Positions 5,928-22,748 of a stretch of DNA of 35,548 nucleotides are shown here, in pieces; position 1 is the stretch's first letter; each line of letters opens with the position of its first letter. This stretch comes from a virus: positions 1 to 35,548 of IMG/VR virus record IMGVR_UViG_3300037094_000013; one strand, given 5' to 3'. Below the pieces are notes generated by a model. That model was not told the origin of the DNA and did no database searches. It was given only the letters and a program-made list of their open reading frames with translations. The translations under genes and the position numbers were made by a program.

Positions 5928-6314
5928 TCAATCCCTCCAGCATTTTTCGCTCCACGACCATTGTTCTTTTCCATAATGTTTAAGTATATAGAACCCTGCT
6001 TCTAAGTTCTGTTGGGGATTGGTAATGTCGAATCCGAGTGACATCATTTGCTTCTGCCAGTAGTGGGAATTAATCTGCCAATACGAGTAATCGTATGACC
6101 ATATAATTCCTTCTGCATTCTTATTAGCCCTAAGAGCATTGGGAAGATCTCTCGATTCACATTCGATGATCCTTGTAGCCAGCGCCGCAGATACTTCGTA
6201 TTTCGCTGCCAGAGTATCTATTTGTTCTGTAAGTGTCGGGGGTATTGGGGGTTCGGCTGGGGCTTTATTTGGCCCTAATCCTAAGATTAGAGCGACCAAA
6301 TGGCCAACTATCAT
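5928..6314 (-). CDS. Lytic transglycosylase/lysozyme-like endolysin candidate with N-terminal signal
   Basis: 128 residues. A short hydrophobic N-terminus (MIVGHLVALILGLG) followed by a Pro-rich linker suggests export or a signal-arrest segment. The catalytic region reads ATRIIECESRDLP with the candidate catalytic Glu, then YSYWQINSHYW and NLEAGFYILKHYG, as in soluble lytic transglycosylase (goose-lysozyme-like) folds with the conserved Q-IN and A-ILK-Y-G elements. It would cleave peptidoglycan, either for host lysis or during entry. The next gene downstream was separated from it by methyltransferase element 1. A 96-aa membrane protein in the same operon (8655-8945) could serve as partner, but that is conjecture. 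Confidence 0.75.
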   Translation of the reverse strand: MIVGHLVALILGLGPNKAPAEPPIPPTLTEQIDTLAAKYEVSAALATRIIECESRDLPNALRANKNAEGIIWSYDYSYWQINSHYWQKQMMSLGFDITNPQQNLEAGFYILKHYGKEQWSWSEKCWRD

Positions 6315-10960: not shown

Positions 10961-11204
10961 CTTTTAGGTACTCTGTTGCATCGTGGAACGAATATCCCAT
11001 ATCAACCAGGAATGAAATAGCTCCATGCCCATTTTTACCGCATCCAAAACAGTGATATCCACCATCGGGATAAAGAACACAAGATGGACTACGTTCTTCG
11101 TGGAATGGACATCTAACCGATATTCGTCTTCCTGGTTTTAATCCCAATAACGTAGGAATCGGAATCTCACGCAATCTCTGTAGTTCACTTACACTGAGTT
11201 CCAT
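10929..11204 (-). CDS. Primase zinc-binding protein (CHC2 type), 3' end replaced by element 2
   Basis: 91 residues. The DnaG-type zinc ribbon is clear: RCPFHEERSPS with Cys32 and His35, then YHCFGCGKNG with Cys52 and Cys55, followed by GAISFLVDMGYSF. Such domains read the template for primer start in DnaG and T7 gp4. Here the domain is a separate protein, translated after the TOPRIM-helicase gene with a 16-nt overlap, so the T7-type primase is split. The last residues (ACLSPHDIMR) are encoded by the inserted element; without it the frame would read LKHYTTDSPLTSSSIR before its stop. The core zinc domain is unaffected. Confidence 0.85.
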   Translation of the reverse strand: MELSVSELQRLREIPIPTLLGLKPGRRISVRCPFHEERSPSCVLYPDGGYHCFGCGKNGHGAISFLVDMGYSFHDATEYLKACLSPHDIMR

Positions 11205-12712
11205 AGATCGTCGCTAGCTTCTTGTACCTGTGCAATCTCTCTTGGGGATGTCGAGTGTTTAAATGTCTTTCCATAAACTCCCGTTGATGGATTGAATGTG
11301 TATATTCCATCTCCCATTTCACCTTTATTTTTTAAAACGTCAACCGAAATCTCATTAAGCGAGTTTGTCTCTGACAACATTATAACCACTTCTGGGTCTT
11401 GATAGAGGGAAGATGATCCCTTTAAGTCCTCGATGTTTGGTTTGCGAGTTCTCGCAATGAATCCACCAGGTCGCTCCGTCTTACGAACGTGAGATACTAT
11501 GAGTAATACTATTCCAGAGTCTTCTGCAATTCTTTTAAGTTTTTGTAAGGTGTCCATGATCGCGTCCCCCCTAGAGCCACTACTCAATTGACGCACCATG
11601 TAGTCCAGGTGATCTATGATAACAACCTGAATATCAAAGTACTTCTTAGACTTAGATATAAACTCTACGGTGTGATCTTTATCTGGCATTGCAAAGTATA
11701 TGGGAAGGCCAGAAGCATCCTTCATTACCCTATCCCAGTCCTCGTCTTTGTACATCGCAAGCTCCGTTAGTCCCGCGTCTTCGCGTATCTGTAGGAAGCG
11801 TCGCCCAACAGAATCAATGCCACGCTCAAACGGGAGTATCAATGTTGGTATGTTGTGATTAGCAAACTCATTAGCTATGTTCATAACATACGAAGTCTTG
11901 CCAACGTTACTACGTCCAGAGATGATTCCCATCCATCCCTTTTCAAAGTTTATTTGTGGCATGAACTTAGAGCTGATTGTTGCCACCTCTCCCTTACGAA
12001 GAGACTCTATCACATCCCCCATTGTCTTGAATTGTTGACGCGTGAATGGTTTGGAAGACTTAAGTACTTCTCGAAACTCGTCCACTGAATGTTTAGTCAA
12101 AAACTCATTTGGATCCTTGCAATCCCCATAGTCGATACTGTAACACCTATCCTGTCCAAGTCTCTCTGCCATTTTGCGTGCTGCCATCTTTCCTGGTTCA
12201 TCATTGTCATATCCTATATAGATTCGTGGGATATTGTCAATGAGTTCTAACCATCCCCCAAATGAATCCTTACCAGCAGATGGAGAAACAACATTCTTCA
12301 CCCCAGCTTGCCAAGCAGACATCGCATCAAACTCACCCTCAACAACAAGGACAAATCCTTTCTTAGACGCTTCGTGGATTCCATCTTGGTTAAACACCCA
12401 TGATTCTGCCCCATGCTCTCCAGAATATTTATTATCAACTGGTTCTAGGAAACGATACTTGATATTAACGAGTTCGTCGTTCTTGAACACTGGAATAGCA
12501 ATGGCGCTTGGGGATGTCTGGAAGCCAAGTTTAAAGTGACGGATGGTCTCGTCGTTTAACCCTCTTTTTTTAAGGTAGTCAAGTCCGTCTGTGGTATCCC
12601 ACAAATTCTTAATTAGGGAATCAAGCTTGGAGATGTCAGGACGAGAATATTCACGGCCCAAAGTTTCCCTAATGGATTGCAATTTTTCACTGATCGGTGT
12701 TTGTAATTCCAT
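11189..12712 (-). CDS. TOPRIM primase-DnaB-type helicase fusion
   Basis: 507 residues. The N-terminal part has a TOPRIM domain: VVEGEFDA (123-130) and YDNDEPGK (168-175) carry the metal-binding acids. The C-terminal half is a RecA-like hexameric helicase: SGRSNVGKT (265-273, Walker A), VVIIDHLDYM (363-372, Walker B), then IVLLIVSHVRK and DLKGSSSLYQDPEVV. This is T7 gp4 without its zinc domain, which is encoded by the next gene. It should prime and unwind at the phage fork. ATG 12712 was chosen because it follows the AAATAAT leader shared by other genes; an ATG at 12739 would overlap the upstream gene by 13 nt. Confidence 0.9.
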   Translation of the reverse strand: MELQTPISEKLQSIRETLGREYSRPDISKLDSLIKNLWDTTDGLDYLKKRGLNDETIRHFKLGFQTSPSAIAIPVFKNDELVNIKYRFLEPVDNKYSGEHGAESWVFNQDGIHEASKKGFVLVVEGEFDAMSAWQAGVKNVVSPSAGKDSFGGWLELIDNIPRIYIGYDNDEPGKMAARKMAERLGQDRCYSIDYGDCKDPNEFLTKHSVDEFREVLKSSKPFTRQQFKTMGDVIESLRKGEVATISSKFMPQINFEKGWMGIISGRSNVGKTSYVMNIANEFANHNIPTLILPFERGIDSVGRRFLQIREDAGLTELAMYKDEDWDRVMKDASGLPIYFAMPDKDHTVEFISKSKKYFDIQVVIIDHLDYMVRQLSSGSRGDAIMDTLQKLKRIAEDSGIVLLIVSHVRKTERPGGFIARTRKPNIEDLKGSSSLYQDPEVVIMLSETNSLNEISVDVLKNKGEMGDGIYTFNPSTGVYGKTFKHSTSPREIAQVQEASDDLWNSV

Positions 12713-12726
12713 ATTATTTATGTATT

Positions 12727-13023
12727 TTAGATCGTCCATACATCTGTTTCTCGCTTAGCGTTGTTAATCATCTCGCGCCTGTGGCTTCTAGTGTTGCGTG
12801 TGTGACGATTGCCACCAAGTAACATTTCAAGTGCCAGATCGACCGTGCCGACGTCAATTCCAATTATTGACTCTCTTTCACGCCTTAGTAGTTCTTTAGA
12901 GATAGTGGGGAAAGGATCGGGCATTGGCTTTGTTTTTGCACCAGGTTTAACCATAAGAAACCATTTGTATACAGATTTAAGTGGTAATCCATCATTCCTG
13001 TTCGGCATATTCTGTGATCGCAT
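12727..13023 (-). CDS. Hypothetical 98-aa protein
   Basis: Between the ATP-grasp and primase-helicase genes, overlapping the former by 32 nt if ATG 13023 is used or 17 nt if ATG 13008 is used. It contains a Pro-rich segment (KPMPDPFPTI), an acidic/aliphatic stretch (IIGIDVGTVDLALEML) and a basic C-terminal region (RHTRNTRSHRREM). I recognise no domain. A helicase-loader-like role would be typical of the position but nothing in the sequence proves it. Confidence 0.6.
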   Translation of the reverse strand: MRSQNMPNRNDGLPLKSVYKWFLMVKPGAKTKPMPDPFPTISKELLRRERESIIGIDVGTVDLALEMLLGGNRHTRNTRSHRREMINNAKRETDVWTI

Positions 13024-13759
13024 TAGCGTAGGCAGTTTGTCCCATCGGGCTAACGCCCGCCGCCGTGCCTACCTCTAGGACGTATGATCTGTCCCGATAT
13101 CTGATAATGTCCACCGCCCCAAAATCAAGCCCCAATGCCTCTATTGCCTCTCTAGCGCGAAGTACAACACCCTCTCTAGGGGAGACATCGCGCAAGAAGT
13201 AAAAGCCGTTGTGGGCGTTTTTAATGCGTTCTGCGGGGGCCGCCTCGTAAGTGCCATCCTCGCGCTGTTTCATTTTCTTGGCATAGTCAATTGCTTCGCC
13301 CTTAAAAATGTGAACACGATATTCCTCGCACGGATTGAGTAGCTTTGTGTAAAGCGGGGCTGGCTGGATCGTGTCGGGGGTAGATATACGAATACCCGCC
13401 CCCCCACTACCCGTAAGCGTGTGTCGCTCTACGATGTCATGCCACTGTCGTGCCTCGTCTATGTCCACTGTCCACGGTACTGTTCGCACTCCAGCCTCGC
13501 TTAGTTTTTCAAAAGTTCGTAGCTTATTTACTGCCAGTGCTACTGCACTTGGCTTGTTCAAAATCTGTTCGGGATTGTATGCCCATTGTGGCTCTCTAGA
13601 ATTACCCCAGTTGACAATTAGATCATCAACACGACTAGTATAGCGACGATTAGGATACACCCTAATTGTGTTTTTCCCATTATTACGTTGAAGCGCGTCG
13701 GCTATACCCCGTGAAGACGCACTGGCTATTTTGTAAGGAAAAATGACGATCCTACCCAT
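12992..13759 (-). CDS. ATP-grasp ligase-like protein
   Basis: 255 residues. An N-terminal region (VNWGNSREPQW, NKPSAVALAVNKLRTFEKL) precedes the ATP-grasp core: ERHTLTGSGGAGIRI as the glycine-rich loop, EEYRVHIFKGEAI, and the metal-binding end LDFGAVDIIRYRDRSYVLEVGTA. This architecture recurs in phage ATP-grasp proteins that comparative genomics groups with phage amidoligases and class II glutamine amidotransferases. It may join amino acids or amines to peptides together with the products of 16727-21929, although it lies in the opposite, replication operon. GC content is higher than in adjacent genes. The exact substrate is unknown. Confidence 0.75.
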   Translation of the reverse strand: MGRIVIFPYKIASASSRGIADALQRNNGKNTIRVYPNRRYTSRVDDLIVNWGNSREPQWAYNPEQILNKPSAVALAVNKLRTFEKLSEAGVRTVPWTVDIDEARQWHDIVERHTLTGSGGAGIRISTPDTIQPAPLYTKLLNPCEEYRVHIFKGEAIDYAKKMKQREDGTYEAAPAERIKNAHNGFYFLRDVSPREGVVLRAREAIEALGLDFGAVDIIRYRDRSYVLEVGTAAGVSPMGQTAYANAITEYAEQE

Positions 13760-13813
13760 ATAAAAATCATCAAACTATTAAGTTTTGCAATCGGCCCTGC
13801 ACTGTTAAAAACA

Positions 13814-13842
13814 ATCTTATCATGCTTTTCTCATGAAATCAA
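13814..13842 (-). promoter_or_regulatory. Possible internal promoter TTGATT-N17-TAAGAT
   Basis: On the minus strand the -35 TTGATT (13837-13842), 17-bp spacer and -10 TAAGAT (13814-13819) lie at the end of the initiator gene, 55 nt before the ATP-grasp ATG. The -10 is weaker than at the other promoters, so this is tentative. Confidence 0.3.
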
Positions 13843-14649
13843 GTGTTCTACGCTGTTAAACAACTCTTTACAAAGTGTGTCAAGATACTTCGTAAGTTCG
13901 GTGTCATGATCTTGGCCCCACATTGAGGCAGTTGGCTCATTAGCCATAAGGTAAGTTTCGTACTGCCCCACGTTATTATAAAGCCATGTAAGGGGAAATC
14001 CAGCCTCATAAGCCTTATCCCACATGAAATCGTCATTACCCGTCATTCCTCGCCACTCAAAATGCTGGAACATGAAACACCCAGCTTGTGCAAGCGTGTG
14101 TGTTTTAAGTATCCTCTCTAGGGCTTTATAGGTGGCGGGGTATGAGGGTAGCTTAGGCAGGTTTCCGTAGTTAAACTTGTATAGGTTTTGATAGAGCTGG
14201 ATAAGAGTGTCAACACTCGTCCTGTTAGGCTTAATAGGATCGGATGTAATCTTATTACTCTCTCTTATATTACTCTCTCCTATGTTACTCTCTCTGTCAA
14301 TCTGTGCATTGGACGGATTTACATCTGTAGATTGGACGACCCCTTGTGTAGATTGGACGGTATTGACTGAAAACGAAATAAGTGTCTTAATCTGTTGCCT
14401 ATGATGATTCTTTCCATCGTCGAAAAAGGATCGCTGTATGTACCCTAGTTTTTCAAGTTCACGCAGAACATTTGTAACGGTATCGGGTGCGGTTTTCGCT
14501 ACCCTAGCAATCTCGTCATTTGATGCAAAGCACTTTCCGTCCTTTAAGTGTTCGTACCAATAAAGCGTAGCATAAACACGATGATGCACTCCTGTCAAGT
14601 GTTCATCGTTTATAAGTCTATAGGGTATGATAAAAAAGTCTGGCGTCAT
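13831..14649 (-). CDS. Replication initiator-like winged-helix protein
   Basis: 272 residues. The N-terminal ~80 residues form a winged helix (FFIIPYRLINDEHL, then CFASNDEIARVAKTAPDTVTNVLRELEKLGYI), typical of phage replication initiators and O-like proteins. The middle is low-complexity and carries the ESNI repeat encoded by three 15-bp DNA repeats plus VQST repeats. The C-terminal part (PATYKALERILKTH, FEWRGMTGNDDFMWDKAYEAGFPLTWLYNN) resembles the C-terminal region of such initiators. The gene heads the replication operon, overlapping the Cys-rich peptide gene as ATGA. By analogy with lambda O, the repeats inside the gene may be the origin. Confidence 0.7.
   Translation of the reverse strand: MTPDFFIIPYRLINDEHLTGVHHRVYATLYWYEHLKDGKCFASNDEIARVAKTAPDTVTNVLRELEKLGYIQRSFFDDGKNHHRQQIKTLISFSVNTVQSTQGVVQSTDVNPSNAQIDRESNIGESNIRESNKITSDPIKPNRTSVDTLIQLYQNLYKFNYGNLPKLPSYPATYKALERILKTHTLAQAGCFMFQHFEWRGMTGNDDFMWDKAYEAGFPLTWLYNNVGQYETYLMANEPTASMWGQDHDTELTKYLDTLCKELFNSVEHLIS
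14254..14359. repeat. Iteron-like repeats inside the initiator gene (putative origin)
   Basis: Three tandem 15-bp units occupy 14254-14268, 14269-14283 and 14284-14298 (core TTACTCTCTC). Next come three copies of ATTGGACG at 14308, 14331 and 14352, spaced 23 and 21 bp, two of them inside the longer TGTAGATTGGACG. About two helical turns between copies suits protein binding on one DNA face. Repeats in the middle of an initiator gene are the layout of lambda-type origins. Confidence 0.55.
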
Positions 14650-14786
14650 GTCATATCATCGTCTTCGATGAATAGGTCAAAATCGGGCATTTCATCGTCG
14701 GCGTGATCCTTGCACTCAAAAATACAAAGTTCATGATCGCCAAGCTCACAGTTTAGACAGTCACAGTAACATTCATTTTCTGGCAT
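14646..14786 (-). CDS. 46-aa Cys-rich acidic protein
   Basis: ATG 14786 to TGA 14646, ending with an ATGA overlap into the initiator gene, which supports translation. Six Cys occur in the first 25 residues (ECYCDCLNCELGDHELCIFEC) spaced as possible metal ligands, and the C-terminal half is strongly acidic (DDEMPDFDLFIEDDD). It may bind zinc and mimic nucleic acid or bind a basic partner, but this is inference. It is the first gene of the leftward operon and is preceded by AATAAATTAAAATT without a Shine-Dalgarno. Confidence 0.6.
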   Translation of the reverse strand: MPENECYCDCLNCELGDHELCIFECKDHADDEMPDFDLFIEDDDMT

Positions 14787-14805
14787 AATTTTAATTTATT
14801 GCACA

Positions 14806-14826
14806 TGGTGGGTACTGCCCCCACCA
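14806..14826 (-). promoter_or_regulatory. GC-rich hairpin in the leader of the leftward operon
   Basis: TGGTGGG (14806-14812) pairs with CCCACCA (14820-14826) around a 7-nt loop, 20 nt upstream of the first ATG of the operon. No T-run follows on either strand, so it is more likely a leader or RNA-stability hairpin than a terminator. Confidence 0.45.
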
Positions 14827-14892
14827 ATTCCCCTACTAATTCGTGGTTGCGGCCACTAAGAATGGGCGGTTGACTCTAGCCTGATGTGCTAT

Positions 14893-14907
14893 GTGGCGGC
14901 TCGCCAC
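14893..14907 (-). other. Hairpin just after the tRNA 3' end
   Basis: GTGGCG (14893-14898) pairs with CGCCAC (14902-14907) around a 3-nt loop, 5 nt from the tRNA 3' end on the minus strand. It lacks a U-tract and may mark a processing point or weak terminator. Confidence 0.4.
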
Positions 14908-14912
14908 CTATA

Positions 14913-14981
14913 TTACGGGGATGGGATCGAACCACCGCTAGCGAGTTTCAAGTCGCCGTGCCCGCTTACACTAACCCGTAA
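14913..14981 (-). tRNA. tRNA-like gene, probable anticodon UGA, eight-nt anticodon loop
   Basis: On the minus strand the 7-bp acceptor stem is TTACGGG/CCCGTAA, the D arm GTG-TAAGCGGG-CAC, and the T arm GGTGG-TTCGATC-CCATC with the canonical TTCGA loop. The anticodon stem GGCGA/TCGCT leaves an 8-nt loop CTTGAAAC (14945-14952). With U33 in its normal place the anticodon is TGA (14948-14950), which would read serine UCA, but there is no long variable arm as serine tRNAs have. At 69 nt it is short, and CCA is not encoded. The identity is therefore uncertain; it could be a decoy, frameshift or degenerate tRNA. Confidence 0.7.
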
Positions 14982-15000
14982 CTTTGAGGGGCTTTGATGG

Positions 15001-16380
15001 ACGGACAGCCCTCACACCGTTTAGAAAATCCCCCAGCGACATAGTAGCCTATGATATGTTGCCTTTAGGCACTATCAGAATATAATCGGTGGCTACACAG
15101 TAGCGCGATATATCTCATGAATAGCGGCGAAACAGGATTAAGTTCCGACTGGGGGATACGCAAGAAATTGCGGTATCTTGCGGGGTAGATGTCACAAGCC
15201 CTCATGGACAATGTGGCCTACGATCTGATAGTAGGACGTACACACGGTGTATTCCTAAGATCAGTCTTTCTAGGGGCCATAGCCCCTTGACTGGTGCGTC
15301 CTTAGCGATGTATATATCGAATACACCTCAAATGGGATAGCACAAGCCGAGGATAGGACAACAAGTTTATAACTTGTCGTATAGCGGCGATTTTTGGGTT
15401 TCATTAAGCTACACCATACGGCACACCCTGTGTATGAAAAGGGCTTTGTATATGTAGCACCGCTATGTGATGGTCTAAAAACCGCGCCTTCTTCCGTATA
15501 TGGGAAGTCGTAGATTTTGGCGCGGTTTCTAAACCACCACCATTTTTCTGTACCGTGTTGTGCGAGTGATGTCTACCTGTTGGCATTTGTCTACGGATCG
15601 GGCGTGGATAAATTATCCCGCTTCTAGGCCGCTAGCTGGCGACTAAGTTCGCCTATAGATCATCCTAAGCCAGTATCGCTTTGGTCACAAATGGGCCTAA
15701 CTCCATCGCAGTTTGATCCGCGAAGTCTAGCAAACTATTACCTACGCTACAACAATCACGCACTTTGAAAACAATTAAGGGCACGATTGCTACTTAGCAC
15801 TTGCACTCATGGTAGATACAGCCGTTAGGGATGTATCACACGCACAGCACAGTACAGAACATGTGAAAGATCATTACTGGGAACATTCTACTCCCCACCC
15901 CCACTTGCTGTCAAGCGATTATTGTGTCCGAGTATGCGTAAGCCCCAGTGAAGTAGTAATTTAGCGATTCCTCTATACAGAGCTTGCGAGAGCTACAAGA
16001 CACTACGCAAACACGGCCAAACATATTGCGAAAGATTGCACGATAGTATCCCGATTTAACGTGTAAGATTTTCATAGGCCAAGTACCATTTTAAGCTGTT
16101 TAATGGCTGACTCCCTTGTCCGTCCGTAGACACCCACCGATCCACGCTTAGCACACCACCAGCCAGCATGTTCACCGCTTAAAACTTTATATGTGTACAT
16201 AACACATTAGTTTAGTTTGTAAACTTTACACCGTTACGACTTAGGTGTAACATAAGGATAGCAAGTAGATACACGCAGTCAACTATGCACACTTGCATAA
16301 CTGTGTTGTATTGCAAAAAGTCATTCTGCACGATAAAAAACACTTGCGGTCAAGTAGGTACATGTGATAGTCTTATACGC
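15001..16380 (+). ncRNA. Candidate giant structured RNA region (about 1.4 kb, no convincing gene)
   Basis: There are no packed reading frames here, but many stable helices. Examples: CCCCAG 15031-15036 with CTGGGG 15149-15154; CATAG/CTATG 15040-15053; a GATAC-GCAA stem capped by a GAAA tetraloop (15155-15177); AGGACG 15232-15237 with CGTCCT 15297-15302 enclosing two hairpins; ACAAGTT/AACTTGT 15361-15377; a 10-bp helix AAACCGCGCC/GGCGCGGTTT (15479-15488 with 15519-15528); GGATAA/TTATCC; GATACA/TGTATC; and TTACACC/GGTGTAA near 16226-16250. Place beside a phage tRNA and size recall the GOLLD and ROOL giant RNAs of phages. The GAAA loop favours the plus strand. Limits and strand are not fixed, and I identified no family consensus. 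Confidence 0.5.
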
Positions 16381-16383
16381 AGG

Positions 16384-16394
16384 AAAGGAGGTGA
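16384..16394 (+). promoter_or_regulatory. Near-perfect Shine-Dalgarno
   Basis: AAAGGAGGTGA is complementary to almost the entire 16S rRNA anti-SD tail, 5 nt before the ATG at 16400. It decides that start and contrasts with the AT-rich, SD-free starts of most other genes in the window. Confidence 0.8.
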
Positions 16395-16399
16395 TTTAG

Positions 16400-16576
16400 A
16401 TGCTTCTAAAATGTGATTGGTGCGGGATCAAGTTCGCCAACGCACCGGTGCATTACGCTCATAGGCATTTTTGCCGTGAGACATGCAAAATGGATTGGGT
16501 CGAGACTCAAACCAGAATAGCGGAAGCGCAAAGACAAGAACACGCATACAAGAACCAAGTGCGGCGAACACAGTAA
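16400..16576 (+). CDS. 58-aa zinc-knuckle protein with strong ribosome binding site
   Basis: Starts MLLKCDWCG and has CDWC (5-8) and CRETC (25-29), a treble-clef/FCS-like zinc knuckle, then a long charged helix (WVETQTRIAEAQRQEHAYKN). Family unknown; it may be an RNA- or protein-binding adaptor. The SD is exceptionally strong, suggesting high expression. It sits directly after the structured region and before the hairpin and leader of the amidoligase gene. Confidence 0.7.
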   Translation: MLLKCDWCGIKFANAPVHYAHRHFCRETCKMDWVETQTRIAEAQRQEHAYKNQVRRTQ

Positions 16577-16584
16577 TGGCTTTA

Positions 16585-16608
16585 GGGAGTGTGCCTTAAA
16601 ACACTCCC
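16585..16608 (+). terminator. Hairpin after the zinc-knuckle gene (weak terminator or processing site)
   Basis: GGGAGTGT (16585-16592) pairs with ACACTCCC (16601-16608) 8 nt after the stop of the 58-aa gene. There is no U-tract, so it may only slow or protect the transcript. Confidence 0.4.
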
Positions 16609-16631
16609 ACCAATTATAAATTTATTATTTA

Positions 16632-16702
16632 GGTGGGGGGCAACAAAAACCACACATGATCCGCAGTATTGGGCGCACCCATACGGGATAATCCCCCCAC
16701 CC
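16632..16702 (+). promoter_or_regulatory. Structured leader of the amidoligase operon
   Basis: GGTGGGGGG (16632-16640) pairs over 9 bp with CCCCCCACC (16694-16702), enclosing a second helix built from ATCC/GGAT, GTA/TAC and TGGG-CGCA-CCCA. The fold ends 24 nt before the amidoligase ATG (16727), whose immediate leader is A-rich (AAATAAAACAAACAAT). A riboswitch or translational control element is possible; no known class is recognised. Confidence 0.5.
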
Positions 16703-16726
16703 AAGTAATCAAATAAAACAAACAAT

Positions 16727-18295
16727 ATGCCTAACGCACCACAAAATAACCAACCCACACAGGCACAGCAAAATATGGAGCAACTGCGTAGGGGTTTGTT
16801 AGAAGACTTTGTACCAGATCGTCATTTGATAGGATGTGATCGTTGCGGTGGGGTAATAGAAGAAAATGCACAGAGAGTTGAGGGGATGTTTGGCTTTAGG
16901 ATTCTTTGTGCGCCGTGCTTCATTGAGCTAACAAGAAACCAAGAAGTTTTTGAGCCTCATGATAAAAAAAAGCCCAAGCCTAAGTTTGAACAAGGCACGA
17001 TCATCAAGTCGGATCGCCAGTTTGGACTAGAGTTTGAAGTGAACCTAGACCTTGCTGGGCAACATACACTACGCGACCTTGTGGCCCGTGATTTTAACCT
17101 AGTTCACGATGGTAGCGTAAACGCTGGTATAGAGGTAGTTTCTCCCATACTTTGCGGTAAGACAGGCGAAGACAAGATAAAAGCCATGTGTTCCTCACTA
17201 CAAAAGGTAAAGGCTGGCGCAGATGATAGCTGTGGACTTCATGTTCACATTGACGCCGCAGATTATTTTGAGAACACAAGAATAGATCTCACCACCCTTT
17301 CGGTGATCGGTAAAATAAGAGACTGTAGAATATACGTTTTGGACGCCACCCTACAAAAGACAATGCGCGAGGATAACTACGGGCTATGGGAGGCTGTCTA
17401 TTCTAACGGATCGCTAGATCAATTCACGGTCAACGAGTTTCTGGATTATATGCAAAGTGGAAAGTCCGTAGCAAACCTACCCGTTGTGTGGGCAGATGAT
17501 GGAAAAGTTGCAGAAACTTTTATACAATTCTACACGCCGATTGGATCGCGTGGTGCAAGAATTAAAAACAACGACAGTATAAAGACGGAGGCAGACATTA
17601 AAAAATATCACGGTGAACCATCCCTTGTCACGTTCGGATATTCCAAGTTTGTTGTCATAGACAGGGAGACTTCTAATAATCTTTATTGTGTTTGTGTACC
17701 TAAGTCTTATAGCAAGGGAGATAAGGATCGCCTAGATAGAATTAAGCGCGTGGCCTCATTCTATATCGCATTTGATGACGTGCTTGCCGCGATGTTGCCA
17801 TGTGATAGACGCGACAATGACTTTGCGATCCGTGCGTCAACGCGCATGTCCATACGAGACGTATCGGTTTGCGCTTCTATCCTTGACTTTTTCAACGCAT
17901 GGACAAAGACAAAGGACTTGCGTGGATTCAGACTGTCAATGGGAGAACAACGACACGAAAGCCGATACTATGGGATCAATTTTAGGGCATTATTAAAACA
18001 CGGCACTATCGAGATTCGATATCACGCAGGTACTACAGACGCCGACAAAGCTCTCCACTGGACTGCTCTACATCAGCGTATTGTGGACATCGCCGCAGAC
18101 CTAAAAGACCCCCGCTTTAACCTTGACAGATTGGAAAAGGCAGACATGGTTATCGAAATAGATCGTAAGGCAGACCTATTTTTCGCCAAGCTAAACCTAC
18201 CAAGCGATACAGAGACATACTTGCGTAAGCGCATATCTGAGTATTCTGGTGAGGATTCACATTTTGTTGAAAGTTTAATCGCAGACGATAAATAA
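16727..18295 (+). CDS. Amidoligase-family enzyme (PF12224-like) with N-terminal zinc knuckle
   Basis: 522 residues. A zinc knuckle (CDRC 37-40; CAPC 61-64) precedes an amidoligase core of the glutamine-synthetase-like COOH-NH2 ligase superfamily: FGLEFEVN (99-106), HDGS (127-130), GIEVVSP (134-140), CGLHVHID (169-176) and later GTIEIRYHAGTTDADKA. Family members are predicted to make amide bonds between carboxylates and amines using ATP. It is the first gene of an operon with a glutamine amidotransferase, a second amidoligase and a gamma-glutamylcyclotransferase, so a peptide- or cell-wall-modifying pathway is likely. The exact substrate cannot be read from sequence. Confidence 0.8.
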   Translation: MPNAPQNNQPTQAQQNMEQLRRGLLEDFVPDRHLIGCDRCGGVIEENAQRVEGMFGFRILCAPCFIELTRNQEVFEPHDKKKPKPKFEQGTIIKSDRQFGLEFEVNLDLAGQHTLRDLVARDFNLVHDGSVNAGIEVVSPILCGKTGEDKIKAMCSSLQKVKAGADDSCGLHVHIDAADYFENTRIDLTTLSVIGKIRDCRIYVLDATLQKTMREDNYGLWEAVYSNGSLDQFTVNEFLDYMQSGKSVANLPVVWADDGKVAETFIQFYTPIGSRGARIKNNDSIKTEADIKKYHGEPSLVTFGYSKFVVIDRETSNNLYCVCVPKSYSKGDKDRLDRIKRVASFYIAFDDVLAAMLPCDRRDNDFAIRASTRMSIRDVSVCASILDFFNAWTKTKDLRGFRLSMGEQRHESRYYGINFRALLKHGTIEIRYHAGTTDADKALHWTALHQRIVDIAADLKDPRFNLDRLEKADMVIEIDRKADLFFAKLNLPSDTETYLRKRISEYSGEDSHFVESLIADDK

Positions 18296-18301
18296 TAATT
18301 T

Positions 18302-19750
18302 ATGTGTGGTATCTTATGGGTAGATAGTAAACGTGGTATGAGTGCTGTAAAGCCACTAATAAAGCGATACCGAAAACAGGATCATCGCGGAAAGTCGGGA
18401 TATGGTTACGTTGCGGTAGATGCCAACGGATTCGTTGGTGAGATACACCGCAGTACAGACGAAGACGGGATCATGGAGGCACTTGCAAGTGAACAGTCTA
18501 GTAAGATTCTGTTTCATCATCGCTCCCCCACAAGTCTACCTAACTATGTGGGCGCAACCCACCCATTCAAGATCAGTAAGGACGATTTTGATTTTGATTA
18601 TTACATCGTACATAACGGCGTGATCGCTAATGCAGAGTTTCTTTTTGGTGAATACAAAAAGGCTGGTATAAAGTTCATGTCCGAAATGGCAGAGGGAAAA
18701 TACCATGAGTTTGTCAACACCGACGAATACTACGAGGACTTGGAAACTAAAACAAAGGTAAACGATAGCGAGGTTTTTGCAGTTGACATGGCCGCATTTA
18801 TCGAGGGAAAGCAAACGTGGGTAAAGTCGGCGGGCACCATCGCTTTCATTGGCCTACAAGTATTCAAGAATGGTAAGGACGCTGGCAAGGTCAACTCCCT
18901 ATTTTGGGGACGAAATAATGGCAATCCTGTATGCCTAGAAGAAGACAATGTTTTGTTCACATTGTCAAGCGAAGCTGGTGGAAAAGAAGTAGACGCTGAC
19001 AAAATATATTTCAAAAACTGGCAGACAGGCGAGATCACCACCAAACAAGCCAACGGTATTGCTTATCATGGATTCTCTACAAATGCAAGCGGAATCAAAA
19101 ATGTACATAAGACTAAAGCCGAAAGAAAGGCAGAACGTTGCGCCGCGCGTAAGGCTGGCCAGTCCAACGGCCTACCCGAAGATGCTGTTATACTCTATGA
19201 TGGTGGCCCTAACGAGCCAGAACCAGACCCCGAAATTGACGACGCCGTTGCAAGAATGACGGGCACAAGGATAGAGTCACACCCCTCATTTGATTGGATA
19301 GAAACCCTTAAAGCAACGCAAGATCAAGACGTAAACTTAAAGACCATGTGGGGACTTCTACCCACAAAGTCTAAATTACTTGCCGCAGGTGCCGCAGAGC
19401 AAGTAGAGGATATGACGCTTATTGACATCGGCATTGACCTTAACGCAATAGACAATGAGATCGAAGCGGCAGACATGGGGCGTGGTGACGCAGACGCAGG
19501 GCTGTTGCGACAATTGCGCGACGATTTACAGGATGATCTTGATAGTGAAAATGACGCACTAAGGGAGTTGCGATCTGCACAAGAATTGTTGCGTGAGGCC
19601 GTACAAGCAAAGCCATTCATTCTTAAAGACAGTGAAGAAGCAAAAGCCATGGTGGACGCCGCAAGCTCACAGTGGGGCGAGGCACACAACGCCCGTATTG
19701 CTACATGTGCCGAACTAGAAGCTCACATGGGTGCCTATGGTGGATGGTGA
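18302..19750 (+). CDS. Class II glutamine amidotransferase
   Basis: 482 residues. The N-terminal Ntn-hydrolase domain is diagnostic: MCGILWVD with catalytic Cys2 (exposed after Met removal), FHHRSPTS (71-78), ATHPF (85-89) and VHNGVIAN (103-110). The domain would hydrolyse glutamine to supply ammonia. The C-terminal 200 residues are acidic and coiled-coil-like (RQLRDDLQDDLDSENDALRE) with no synthetase domain, so ammonia would be delivered to a partner, probably the amidoligases beside it. It starts 6 nt after the first amidoligase and overlaps the 110-aa gene. Confidence 0.85.
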   Translation: MCGILWVDSKRGMSAVKPLIKRYRKQDHRGKSGYGYVAVDANGFVGEIHRSTDEDGIMEALASEQSSKILFHHRSPTSLPNYVGATHPFKISKDDFDFDYYIVHNGVIANAEFLFGEYKKAGIKFMSEMAEGKYHEFVNTDEYYEDLETKTKVNDSEVFAVDMAAFIEGKQTWVKSAGTIAFIGLQVFKNGKDAGKVNSLFWGRNNGNPVCLEEDNVLFTLSSEAGGKEVDADKIYFKNWQTGEITTKQANGIAYHGFSTNASGIKNVHKTKAERKAERCAARKAGQSNGLPEDAVILYDGGPNEPEPDPEIDDAVARMTGTRIESHPSFDWIETLKATQDQDVNLKTMWGLLPTKSKLLAAGAAEQVEDMTLIDIGIDLNAIDNEIEAADMGRGDADAGLLRQLRDDLQDDLDSENDALRELRSAQELLREAVQAKPFILKDSEEAKAMVDAASSQWGEAHNARIATCAELEAHMGAYGGW

Positions 19751-20069
19751 ATGGGTAAAAACAGGTAAGGTATGGATCAAGATTTATCCCACAAAAAAGA
19801 AAGATATGCTCTCTAAAAGCGTCCCCGTAGCAATACAATTTAACCTAGAGTGCGAGAACGGACGCAAGGCACAGCGTGTAGTCCCGTTGCGGGGTAGGGA
19901 TGTTGACACTTGCTTATATCGTGTTAGCCGACAAATCGTAGAAGCCAGCGATCTTGTTAGCAAAAATATGTGGATCGAGGAACACAAAGTAATTTACGAC
20001 TTGCCATTACCAGACGAGATGAAATTATTAGACGTGCCAGAACGGAGTGTGAATTATAAATTAAGTTGA
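19737..20069 (+). CDS. Hypothetical 110-aa protein in the amidoligase operon
   Basis: ATG 19737 lies in the last codons of the amidotransferase gene (14-nt overlap); a GTG at 19731 is possible. It begins MVDGEWVKTGKVWIKIYP, contains alternating hydrophobic strands (VPVAIQFNLEC; RKAQRVVPLRG) and a helix (RVSRQIVEASDLV). No catalytic motif or family is recognised. Tight packing between pathway enzymes suggests a partner or regulatory subunit. Confidence 0.65.
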   Translation: MVDGEWVKTGKVWIKIYPTKKKDMLSKSVPVAIQFNLECENGRKAQRVVPLRGRDVDTCLYRVSRQIVEASDLVSKNMWIEEHKVIYDLPLPDEMKLLDVPERSVNYKLS

Positions 20070-20073
20070 CGCC

Positions 20074-21174
20074 ATGAACGCCTTAACATACTACAGCATT
20101 TCGATGGGGTGTGATCCAGAGTTTTTCTTTAGCAAGGATGGTAAAATCGTTGGTAGTGAAAAGCTGATACCCAAAGAAGGGAAAGTATTGTTTAACAAGG
20201 GTGACAGCACAATGGGAACACACGCGCTCACTTCCGATTCAGTTGCCGGAAAGATCATCATAGATGGTGTGCAAGCCGAACTGAACCCGCGCCCACACTC
20301 ATGCCGTGCAACATTGGGAAATGAGATCGCGTGGTGTTTCCGTAAGATCAAGAATGAGTTATTGAAAGACGGCAATACCATAGATTTCTCACAAGCCGTT
20401 GAAGTCTCTAAGGAGGAGATGGATAGCCTTAGTGCGTCGTCTAAGCGTTTTGGATGTTCGCCATCACACAATGCCTACGCAGAGGATGGCAATAGTAAAA
20501 TCACCGTCAATCCGTTAGTCTATCGTACCCGTGCGGCAGGTGGGCATATTCATCTTGGCCCGAACCCATCCGACACGCTAGAGACGCAACGCAAGATCAA
20601 GGATGCACTTGACAATCATAAGATTATAGTGCCTATTCTAGACTTGATTGTAGGCAATACTTGTGTTCTGGTAGACAGGAACCCGTCAAACATAGAGCGA
20701 CGCAAGGTATATGGCAAGGCAGGTGAATACCGTACCCCAAAATACGGGCTGGAATACCGCACCTTGTCTAACTTCTGGCTAACATCATACCCACTGTTTG
20801 GAATGGCCTTTGGGCTTGCTAGGCTCGCGGTAAATATCGTTGCAAACGATACAGAGGACTTTTCCTACTCTAAAGCATTATTGGAAAAGGTGCGTATGCG
20901 CGATGTTGTTAAAGCGATCAACGAAAATGACTTCGACCTTGCGTTGAAAAACTTTAACGCGATAAAGCCGTTGCTCATAGAAATGGTGGGTGTTGGAGGC
21001 CATCATCCCATTACAACGGGAAACATCGCATATTTTGAACACTTTATCACTAAGCCCATGTCCTATTGGTTTAAGGAAAACCCCCTAGACCATTGGATCG
21101 GACTTGGCGATGGTCATGCTGGGGGATTCGAGGACTTTCTAGCAAAGGTCGTTTCTAAGGACATGGTAAAGTAG
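20074..21174 (+). CDS. phiEco32-type COOH-NH2 ligase (amidoligase type 2)
   Basis: 366 residues. It shows the family's sequence landmarks in order: MGCDPEFFF (11-19), DGVQAELNPRP (64-74), AAGGHIHLGP (154-163) and GLEYRTLSNFW (225-235), with acid and His residues that would bind ATP-metal as in glutamine-synthetase-like ligases. This is the family first described in phage phiEco32 and predicted to form amide links. It is distinct from the amidoligase at 16727, so the cluster has two ligases of the superfamily. It lies 4 nt after the 110-aa gene and 1 nt before the next gene. Confidence 0.85.
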   Translation: MNALTYYSISMGCDPEFFFSKDGKIVGSEKLIPKEGKVLFNKGDSTMGTHALTSDSVAGKIIIDGVQAELNPRPHSCRATLGNEIAWCFRKIKNELLKDGNTIDFSQAVEVSKEEMDSLSASSKRFGCSPSHNAYAEDGNSKITVNPLVYRTRAAGGHIHLGPNPSDTLETQRKIKDALDNHKIIVPILDLIVGNTCVLVDRNPSNIERRKVYGKAGEYRTPKYGLEYRTLSNFWLTSYPLFGMAFGLARLAVNIVANDTEDFSYSKALLEKVRMRDVVKAINENDFDLALKNFNAIKPLLIEMVGVGGHHPITTGNIAYFEHFITKPMSYWFKENPLDHWIGLGDGHAGGFEDFLAKVVSKDMVK

Positions 21175-21175
21175 T

Positions 21176-21529
21176 ATGGAAATTGAACAAATAGCTTCAT
21201 GTTGTGGGATCGGTGAAATGGCTGATTTGGATAGTAGTGCTGTAGGAAATATGTACATGTTTTGTGAAAGTGAGACTCCATACTCAAACGATAGATATAA
21301 TCTCTACGTTTTCACAGACGCAGTTTATAATCGTAGAGGATCAAAACTAGCCGCATACATTATTCGCAATCAGTTAGGAACAATCACAGCTAGTCCCCGT
21401 AGAATAGGTCACAGTGGACGAAATGTTCAATTATGGATATGGAGTGTGGATTGGGACAAAATGGAAGAATGGGCCAAAAAGCACAATTGCTTTAGACTAG
21501 AAGACGGCGACGATGGTTATAACTGGTAG
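21176..21529 (+). CDS. Hypothetical 117-aa protein in the amidoligase operon
   Basis: Starts MEIEQIASCCGIGEM 1 nt after the ligase stop. It contains YNLYVFTDAVYNRRGSKLA, probably strand-helix, and an aromatic strand QLWIWSVDWDKMEEW. The lone CC pair is not a zinc site. I do not recognise a family. A conserved operon position would suggest a subunit or substrate-binding role, but this is inference. Confidence 0.65.
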   Translation: MEIEQIASCCGIGEMADLDSSAVGNMYMFCESETPYSNDRYNLYVFTDAVYNRRGSKLAAYIIRNQLGTITASPRRIGHSGRNVQLWIWSVDWDKMEEWAKKHNCFRLEDGDDGYNW

Positions 21530-21530
21530 T

Positions 21531-21929
21531 ATGATACAACAACCAAAAAAATTAGTAGCGTGCTTCGGTACACTCAAAAAAGGATTCTATAATCATGAAA
21601 TGCTGGGTAACGCCAAGTTCATGGGATCGGTGGACGTAAAGGGAGTAATGTATCTACACGGCACATATCCAAGATTGTATCACGCGATAAAAGACGATCC
21701 ACACTTTGGATTCGATAAGGAACGTCATCATACCGCAGAGATATATTATGTAGAGTATCCACTATACGAGGATATCTTATACATGGAACGTGGTGCTGGA
21801 TATGTTGAAGAAACAATAGACACGGGAGATGGTAAGGCGTCTATCTTTTTCAATCCACATGAAGTTTTTTCCCCCGATTATGACAAGTGGATCGAGTCTT
21901 ATACGCAGTCATTATTCGATAATAAATAA
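21531..21929 (+). CDS. Gamma-glutamylcyclotransferase-like (AIG2/GGCT) protein
   Basis: 132 residues from ATG 21531, directly after the previous stop. ACFGTLKKGFYNHEML (residues 10-25) matches the glycine-loop signature YGTL-x-G-x-x-N of the GGCT fold, followed by beta strands (GVMYLHG, EIYYVEY) and DILYMERGAGYVEE, which holds the candidate catalytic Glu and the G-Y element. GGCT proteins cleave or cyclise gamma-glutamyl linkages. In an amidoligase operon it could edit or reverse a gamma-glutamyl conjugate. Presence next to GATase and COOH-NH2 ligase fits published gene-neighbourhood predictions for phage amidoligase systems. Confidence 0.8.
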   Translation: MIQQPKKLVACFGTLKKGFYNHEMLGNAKFMGSVDVKGVMYLHGTYPRLYHAIKDDPHFGFDKERHHTAEIYYVEYPLYEDILYMERGAGYVEETIDTGDGKASIFFNPHEVFSPDYDKWIESYTQSLFDNK

Positions 21930-21932
21930 ACT

Positions 21933-22172
21933 ATGTGGGATGACTATAACATAGAGCTAGAGGCAGTAAACAGGATCAAGGGATATTTTGATGTTAACCC
22001 CATGATCCGCAGTCTAAGTGCGAGACAGCGACACACGTTGAAGTTTCGCCTTAAAGAGCAATTACAGCGTGTTAGGCGTGATCGGGACGCCACCCCCCAT
22101 GACGTGCCAGATGATCGTATACACCTGGGGGAGATGGTGGAGTATTGTCGCACCCACCCAGTATTAGCATAA
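21933..22172 (+). CDS. Hypothetical 79-aa basic helical protein
   Basis: Starts MWDDYNIELEAVNRIKGYF after the AATAAATAAACT leader. It contains a basic helix (LSARQRHTLKFRLKEQLQRVRRDRD) and ends CRTHPVLA. No family is recognised. It belongs to the amidoligase transcript by spacing (3 nt before, 11 nt after). Confidence 0.6.
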   Translation: MWDDYNIELEAVNRIKGYFDVNPMIRSLSARQRHTLKFRLKEQLQRVRRDRDATPHDVPDDRIHLGEMVEYCRTHPVLA

Positions 22173-22183
22173 CGTACAAATGT

Positions 22184-22615
22184 ATGAGTTTACTTACAGA
22201 CGATTTACAATATGGGCCGCTGGAAATTTATGAAAGTCGGGTAGGGTGTGGCACATTTCAAATTTCTGGCATATCCATGTATACAGAGCCATCTGAAGTG
22301 GTTAGCGATCTAAAGCGCAAATTCATGCGCGCTGGGGACGAGTTTATGATATTGTACGGTGACAATGTGCAAACTCGTACCATAGGCGATGATCTTGCAA
22401 AGTATATTGAGGATCAGAAACTTGGCACGGTGGTAAGTAGCTTGCCATCCCACAATGGCAATTACATGATGTCACCCGAAAGAATGACAAAGACGTGGGT
22501 ATGGAATGTTAACATGCTCGCTCTTAAAAACTGGGATGGTTTGGGGGAAAAGAAAACCGTTGTAGAAAGCACCATCCGCAGGGCGCGCCGTACGATGGAC
22601 ATACCTACGTGGTAA
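22184..22615 (+). CDS. Hypothetical 143-aa protein, last gene of the amidoligase operon
   Basis: ATG 22184 is preferred over an earlier start that would run into the upstream gene. The protein begins MSLLTDDLQYGPLEIYESR and has mixed strands and helices (GTFQISGISMY; EVVSDLKRKFM; DEFMILYGDNVQTR). The C-terminus is basic (IRRARRTMDIPTW). No known family. It is followed by an intergenic segment with a promoter-like sequence and a bidirectional terminator. Confidence 0.6.
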   Translation: MSLLTDDLQYGPLEIYESRVGCGTFQISGISMYTEPSEVVSDLKRKFMRAGDEFMILYGDNVQTRTIGDDLAKYIEDQKLGTVVSSLPSHNGNYMMSPERMTKTWVWNVNMLALKNWDGLGEKKTVVESTIRRARRTMDIPTW

Positions 22616-22719: not shown

Positions 22720-22748
22720 AAAAGCCGCATGCTAGTAATGCGGCTTTT
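22720..22748. terminator. Bidirectional intrinsic terminator
   Basis: AAAAGCCGCAT (22720-22730) pairs with ATGCGGCTTTT (22738-22748) around a 7-nt loop; A- and T-rich flanks serve both strands. It separates the converging amidoligase operon and the minus-strand operon ending at 22778. Confidence 0.9.

Follow-up and report, generated by a model that had tools for sequence, protein, structure and literature searches.

A divergent phiEco32/LUZ24/RIO-1-type amidoligase cassette in an uncultured phage

The phages RIO-1, phiEco32, 7-11, PA11, tf, MR299-2, LUZ24, PaP3 and CW02 share a seven-gene 'peptidoglycan modification cassette', which is thought to prevent superinfection and is credited there to Iyer et al. 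2009 and Hardies et al. 2013 (PMC5498523). The full set has also been published for UFV-P2 (PMC3890496), and during infection by the Pseudoalteromonas phage PSA-HP1 the cassette genes are transcribed immediately (PMC7082346). In LUZ24 (gp16-gp22), RIO-1 (open reading frames 8-14) and phiEco32 (p77-p86), all five enzyme families are encoded: an ATP-grasp ligase, an amidoligase (PF12224), a class II glutamine amidotransferase (glutaminase), a phiEco32-type COOH-NH2 ligase (PF14395) and a gamma-glutamylcyclotransferase (GGCT)-like protein. The genes are tightly packed and lie in the early region by a primase/helicase gene. Here we analysed a DNA stretch of 35,548 bases, which represents the entire IMG/VR virus record IMGVR_UViG_3300037094_000013 of an uncultured phage and is referred to as the window. 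It likewise encodes all five families, and we regard it as near certain that this locus is a divergent member of the known phiEco32/LUZ24/RIO-1 cassette and not a new kind of system.

The first-pass annotation of this DNA had described the amidoligase, a glutaminase with Cys2, the PF14395 ligase and the GGCT in one cluster, with the ATP-grasp protein in the opposite operon, and profile searches together with motif inspection found all five enzymes in these places (Table 1). The limits of the cluster, previously drawn at 16727-21929, hold for the enzymes but not for the operon, which runs on to 22615. That is, a single packed plus-strand operon (16727-22615) encodes the amidoligase, the glutaminase, a 104-aa protein, the PF14395 ligase, a 117-aa protein, the GGCT-like protein, a 79-aa protein and, last, another protein of the 117-aa family. 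The ATP-grasp gene resides within a divergent replication operon and is followed downstream by the primase/helicase gene. In comparison with phiEco32, LUZ24 and RIO-1, the window thus differs by the position of the ATP-grasp gene on the opposite strand, by a glycine in place of Asn231 in the encoded enzyme, by the order amidoligase, glutaminase, PF14395 ligase, GGCT, and by the additional family of 117-aa proteins. The amidoligase and the glutaminase are also shared with OM43 phages, for which both have been reported (PMC10580990).

The nearest relative is a further IMG/VR record of 46.7 kb, IMGVR_UViG_3300032893_003193 (L005, which is the same as L018 and L091). It has the genes of the window on the same strands and in the same order at 32-46% protein identity, and its ATP-grasp ligase carries the same glycine. 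However, no 104-aa gene was found between its glutaminase and ligase genes, and it also lacks the 117-aa gene and the N-terminal cysteine motif of the amidoligase. The cassette adjoins the primase/helicase gene in the window, L005, phiEco32, LUZ24 and RIO-1, and this location beside replication genes goes along with a probably early expression. The protein that precedes the amidoligase in the named phages (LUZ24 gp17, phiEco32 p85, RIO-1_12) has no match in the window or in L005; it is present in 6 of 170 loci overall, is not a defining enzyme and was therefore not used to exclude membership. A fusion of a gp17-like protein to the N-terminus of the amidoligase was considered as well and rejected.

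Active-site residues were checked in alignments that held 61 to 137 relatives for each family. Membership of the ATP-grasp protein in its family is clear by profile, the best match being RimK (5zct, 6.6e-10), followed by LysX-like and other glutamate ligases and by D-Ala-D-Ala (Ddl) ligases. In the alignment of 137 homologues it keeps K79, E146, R148, K162, D217 and E229, whereas the third ligand of the E-x-N metal motif is replaced by Gly231. At this position asparagine occupies 134 of the 137 rows and aspartate one, and glycine occurs in the window and L005 only. Being common to these two proteins at 46% identity, Gly231 is a real trait of the lineage. Loss of ATP- or metal-binding residues, named beforehand as an argument against the proposed system, is seen in part and for the ATP-grasp ligase alone (N231G); the other four enzymes keep the residues checked. 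The glutaminase retains Cys2, R74, T77, H87, HNG 104-106 (N105-G106) and D155, i.e. the class II (N-terminal nucleophile) site, and its family profile matches the glutaminase domain of GlmS/PurF (3e-18); the C-terminal half of the 482-residue protein is without assigned function. The GGCT family profile matches UPF0131/GGCT structures (2e-12), and the protein carries FGTLKKG, corresponding to the YGTL motif, as well as the catalytic Glu92, which is found in 56 of 61 relatives.

Carboxylate-amine/ammonia ligases are recognized by an acidic motif in strand 1, acidic residues in strands 2-3, [HD]x[NH] in strand 4, Ex[RK] in strand 6 and an active-site arginine (PMC2588565). The amidoligase of the window keeps G100-E102-E104, D128, E136, H172/H174 and E429/R431, that is, the GhExE, acidic, HxH and ExR elements of the glutamine-synthetase (GS)-fold superfamily, in a core starting at about residue 95. 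The PF14395 ligase has GCDPE 12-16, D64, E69, H158/H160, R209/R220 and E227/R229 and thereby also the features of the superfamily, with strand 1 reading DPE and not ExE across its entire family. The core of the amidoligase is preceded by a zinc-ribbon-like N-terminus with the pattern C37xxC40-x20-C61xxC64, which is not of the CCHC type and thus no zinc knuckle as had been proposed. Among the 95 related amidoligase frames with room for an N-terminal cysteine motif, 37 have one. Since, in addition, both ligases are ordinary constituents of the LUZ24, RIO-1 and phiEco32 cassettes, the view that two ligases plus a zinc motif make this locus a specially rich version did not hold.

By sequence profile search, no solved relatives were found for either of the two GS-type ligases. 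AlphaFold models, built on alignments of the window and IMG/VR proteins, predict that both have the carboxylate-amine ligase (glutamine-synthetase) fold. For the PF14395 ligase (mean predicted local distance difference test score, pLDDT, 93), PafA/Dop were closest (Z 15.9-15.3; root-mean-square deviation 3.6-4.0 over ~260 residues), followed by YbdK/GshAB (Z 14.5) and glutamine synthetases (~13). Foldseek alone ranked GmaS, GS and YbdK first for this model, with weak E-values. The amidoligase model (pLDDT 70.6, core >90) came closest to YbdK (Z 14.5-14.6), with Dop at 11.6.

To assess co-occurrence, profiles were run over 160 IMG/VR neighbourhoods, 80 anchored on the PF14395 ligase and 80 on the ATP-grasp ligase. 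In the former, glutaminase was present in 72, ATP-grasp in 69, amidoligase in 63 and GGCT in 45 loci, and 31 loci had all five families. The ATP-grasp-anchored loci contained glutaminase in 73, amidoligase in 71, PF14395 ligase in 31 and GGCT in 22 cases, and when at least 15 kb long, they invariably encoded amidoligase and glutaminase (49/49). The commonest IMG/VR type consists of amidoligase, glutaminase and ATP-grasp ligase without PF14395 ligase and, as a rule, without GGCT (37 of 80 loci). In the IMG/VR loci, the amidoligase gene directly adjoins the glutaminase gene in 128 cases, the two frames mostly touching, and fusions between cassette enzyme genes were not found. Among 50,697 named phage records, 305 match the PF14395 ligase and 307 records match the ATP-grasp ligase, with near-equal tallies by genus, and more than 400 IMG/VR contigs were obtained for each. 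The bacterial hosts named in a sample of 50 rows of the named-phage ligase records are Gram-negative; the sample includes the Escherichia phages Bas91 and Bas92, which grow on E. coli K-12. In bacterial genomes the sets hardly occur, with 8 matches, all on contigs of metagenome-assembled genomes. The proposed conserved co-occurrence is thus clearly borne out in the IMG/VR loci and in L005.

The divergence of the window is evident from direct searches. The cluster had no Megablast match among named phages, and single-sequence IMG/VR scans with the glutaminase, the ATP-grasp ligase and the amidoligase returned nothing, so that relatives were found via alignments. A tblastn search with the glutaminase in named phages was likewise without match, which reflects divergence and not absence, because LUZ24, RIO-1 and phiEco32 have annotated members of this family.

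Presence of GGCT appears to follow that of the PF14395 ligase. In ATP-grasp loci of at least 15 kb, GGCT was detected in 16 of 26 cases with the ligase versus none of the 23 that lack it (Fisher p 1.7e-6, ignoring relatedness), and in entire records in 7 of 12 with versus 1 of 18 without. When 95 loci were placed on a tree, 50 had ligase and GGCT and 24 the ligase without GGCT, 21 lacked both, and no locus had GGCT without the ligase, in a set that includes loci picked for the ligase. The link between the two is suggestive, not proven. Were it to hold, GGCT would most naturally be read as acting on a gamma-glutamyl product of the PF14395 ligase.

Table 1. Cassette genes and neighbouring features in the window
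Feature	Position	Strand	Profile match or other evidence
Primase/helicase, after ATP-grasp gene	11189..12739	-	Toprim_2 + DnaB_C
ATP-grasp amide ligase (RimK/D-Ala-D-Ala-ligase-like), 255 aa	12992..13759	-	phrog_2599 1.2e-57
Amidoligase_2 (PF12224), 522 aa	16727..18295	+	77.2 bits vs cut-off 22, 2.3e-21
Stand-alone class II (Ntn) glutamine amidotransferase, 482 aa	18302..19750	+	Pfam 21.3 vs cut-off 27 (below)
104-aa protein	19755..20069	+	no Pfam or PHROG match; no relatives
phiEco32-type COOH-NH2 ligase (PF14395), 366 aa	20074..21174	+	45.3 bits vs cut-off 25, 8.7e-12; phrog_3815 7.5e-38
117-aa member of small cassette-associated family	21176..21529	+	CCG[IVM].E, LG.V, W[IV]W motifs
Gamma-glutamylcyclotransferase-like (AIG2/GGACT), 138 aa	21513..21929	+	PF06094 0.0021, 19.1 vs cut-off 22.8 (below)
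79-aa protein	21933..22172	+	no Pfam or PHROG match; no relatives
Second member of 117-aa family	22178..22615	+	profile/alignment match to L002:10124-10474 and 21176-21529
Two-way intrinsic-terminator-like hairpin between plus-strand operon and convergent operon	22720..22748	.	11-bp stem

The plus-strand operon contains further small genes. The 117-aa family is previously undescribed, and its 16 members come from 13 loci in 12 records, all of which have the PF14395 ligase; searches against solved structures and PHROG gave no convincing match. Besides the window, the loci with members near the cassette include L017, L020, L021, L023-L029 and L032, and the gene is doubled in some phages. Of the unknown proteins, for which the first-pass annotation offered no family, the products of 21176-21529 and 22178-22615 thus share one family; no relatives were found for the 104-aa protein. 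For the 104-aa gene, an alternative start (GTG 19731) is possible. A frame of 58 residues with a zinc-finger-like CxxC...C...C pattern, which falls below the 60-aa cut-off, lies just upstream of the amidoligase gene (16400-16576, plus strand). Elsewhere, in 37 loci mostly of the type with amidoligase, glutaminase and ATP-grasp ligase, the ATP-grasp gene is followed by that of a zinc-ribbon protein of 65-75 aa, whose tail is acidic and often has a Glu/Asp end (e.g. L100:11091-11294, L112:4402-4623).

The two operons are separated by a gene-poor divergent stretch of ~1.8 kb (14650-16400) with a 22-nt inverted repeat (15467-15540), which perhaps represents an origin or promoter region. A tRNA-like ARAGORN match at 14911-14982 is doubtful as it lacks a proper anticodon, and an Rfam search of the window yielded no RNA. 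The hairpin at the end of the plus-strand operon has the longest stem among 8 such sites of the stretch, a site number that matches chance expectation. On the minus strand, the phage encodes its own GroES (896-1285; PF00166, 5e-16) and GroEL (1358-2902; PF00118, 2e-33); the latter shares ~28-29% identity with GroEL of named phages and 65% with that of L005, and copies exist in two further cassette phages. An SLT transglycosylase-like protein, a possible endolysin, is also present (5928-6314, minus strand; PF01464, 26.8 bits), as it is in L005. Besides the window, 2 of 14 further records contain SLT (that of L005 included); as this count stands without a control set, the idea that carriers use glycan-cutting endolysins only was dropped.

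How could the five enzymes work together? We propose a two-layer pathway that would operate in the cytoplasm and have as its acceptor a peptide with a carboxylate. In the first layer, formed by the near-universal triad, the ATP-grasp ligase would join an amino acid to an acceptor carboxylate, as suggested by its family, and amidoligase and glutaminase may act as one glutamine-dependent unit that amidates a carboxylate with glutamine-derived ammonia or with an amine. In the second, optional layer, the PF14395 ligase would form a gamma-glutamyl-type bond and GGCT would trim or edit the product; such a role would account for the near-restriction of GGCT to loci with the PF14395 ligase. From the literature, the most likely target would be the peptide stem of peptidoglycan precursors, and the altered wall may shut out later phages or time lysis. 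With modest confidence, we consider this chemistry and the wall target jointly to be the best explanation.

Several points weigh against this proposal. The peptidoglycan target is taken from the literature, and the nearest solved relatives, i.e. PafA/Dop for the PF14395 ligase by fold and RimK for the ATP-grasp ligase by sequence, have proteins as their substrates, not the wall. The association of GGCT with the PF14395 ligase is not significant when relatedness is allowed for, as the ligase changes about six times on the tree with two independent pairs on supported branches. Finally, the third metal ligand has been lost in the lineage of the window, which makes the predicted activity of its ATP-grasp ligase uncertain.

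The same solved relatives raise the alternative that the cassette modifies proteins. RimK extends ribosomal protein S6 with glutamates, and PafA couples Pup to lysine residues. By analogy, host or virion proteins might receive amino acids or a peptide from the ATP-grasp and PF14395 ligases, a mark that glutaminase and GGCT would then remove or edit. The preference of the PF14395 model for PafA/Dop over YbdK is in line with this scenario, and the opposite preference of the amidoligase model indicates that the structural comparison does discriminate. However, the gap in Z amounts to about one unit only, PF03136 has no match in the record even at an E-value of 10, and a Pup-like protein with a conserved Gly-Glu/Gln end was not found among the small proteins of the examined cassettes. 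We judge protein modification to be unlikely, albeit the most serious competitor.

A small-molecule pathway, in which a peptide-like or gamma-glutamyl metabolite of glutathione-like or signalling character is made during infection, is rather improbable. GCS2/YbdK-type ligases with the GS fold do constitute, along with ATP-grasp ligases and GGCT, a toolkit for glutathione-like peptides, and a related bacterial ligase family located beside a glutaminase-like or AIG2 gene has been read that way (PMC2588565). On the other hand, no transporter, thiol or carrier-protein gene was seen in the operon of the window, and the sets were found in phage early regions and only scarcely in bacteria.

More doubtful still is a strictly Pup-type reaction, in which the PF14395 ligase would join the gamma-carboxylate of a glutamate to proteins and glutaminase and GGCT would serve as erasers, so that the cassettes would be devoted to protein tagging and not to the wall. 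The ligase resembles PafA/Dop in its closest modelled fold and in the common motifs of GS-fold ligases (PMC2588565), but differs from them by an identity of ~10% in the structural alignment and by the missing PF03136 sequence match. Very unlikely, finally, is partial decay of the window lineage, with ATP-grasp activity lost and the remaining enzymes running without it: N231G does hit an almost invariant asparagine and the gene has split off the cassette operon, but Lys79, Glu146, Arg148, Lys162, Asp217, Glu229 and an open frame are kept in both the window and L005 despite only 46% identity, which argues for lasting selection on the ATP-grasp ligase.

Taken together, the window provides one more divergent example of a cassette that is widespread in phages and was described in 2009. 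The comparison yields a testable structure, namely a near-constant triad of ATP-grasp ligase, amidoligase and glutaminase and an add-on pair of PF14395 ligase and GGCT, which tells the experimenter which deletions to compare.

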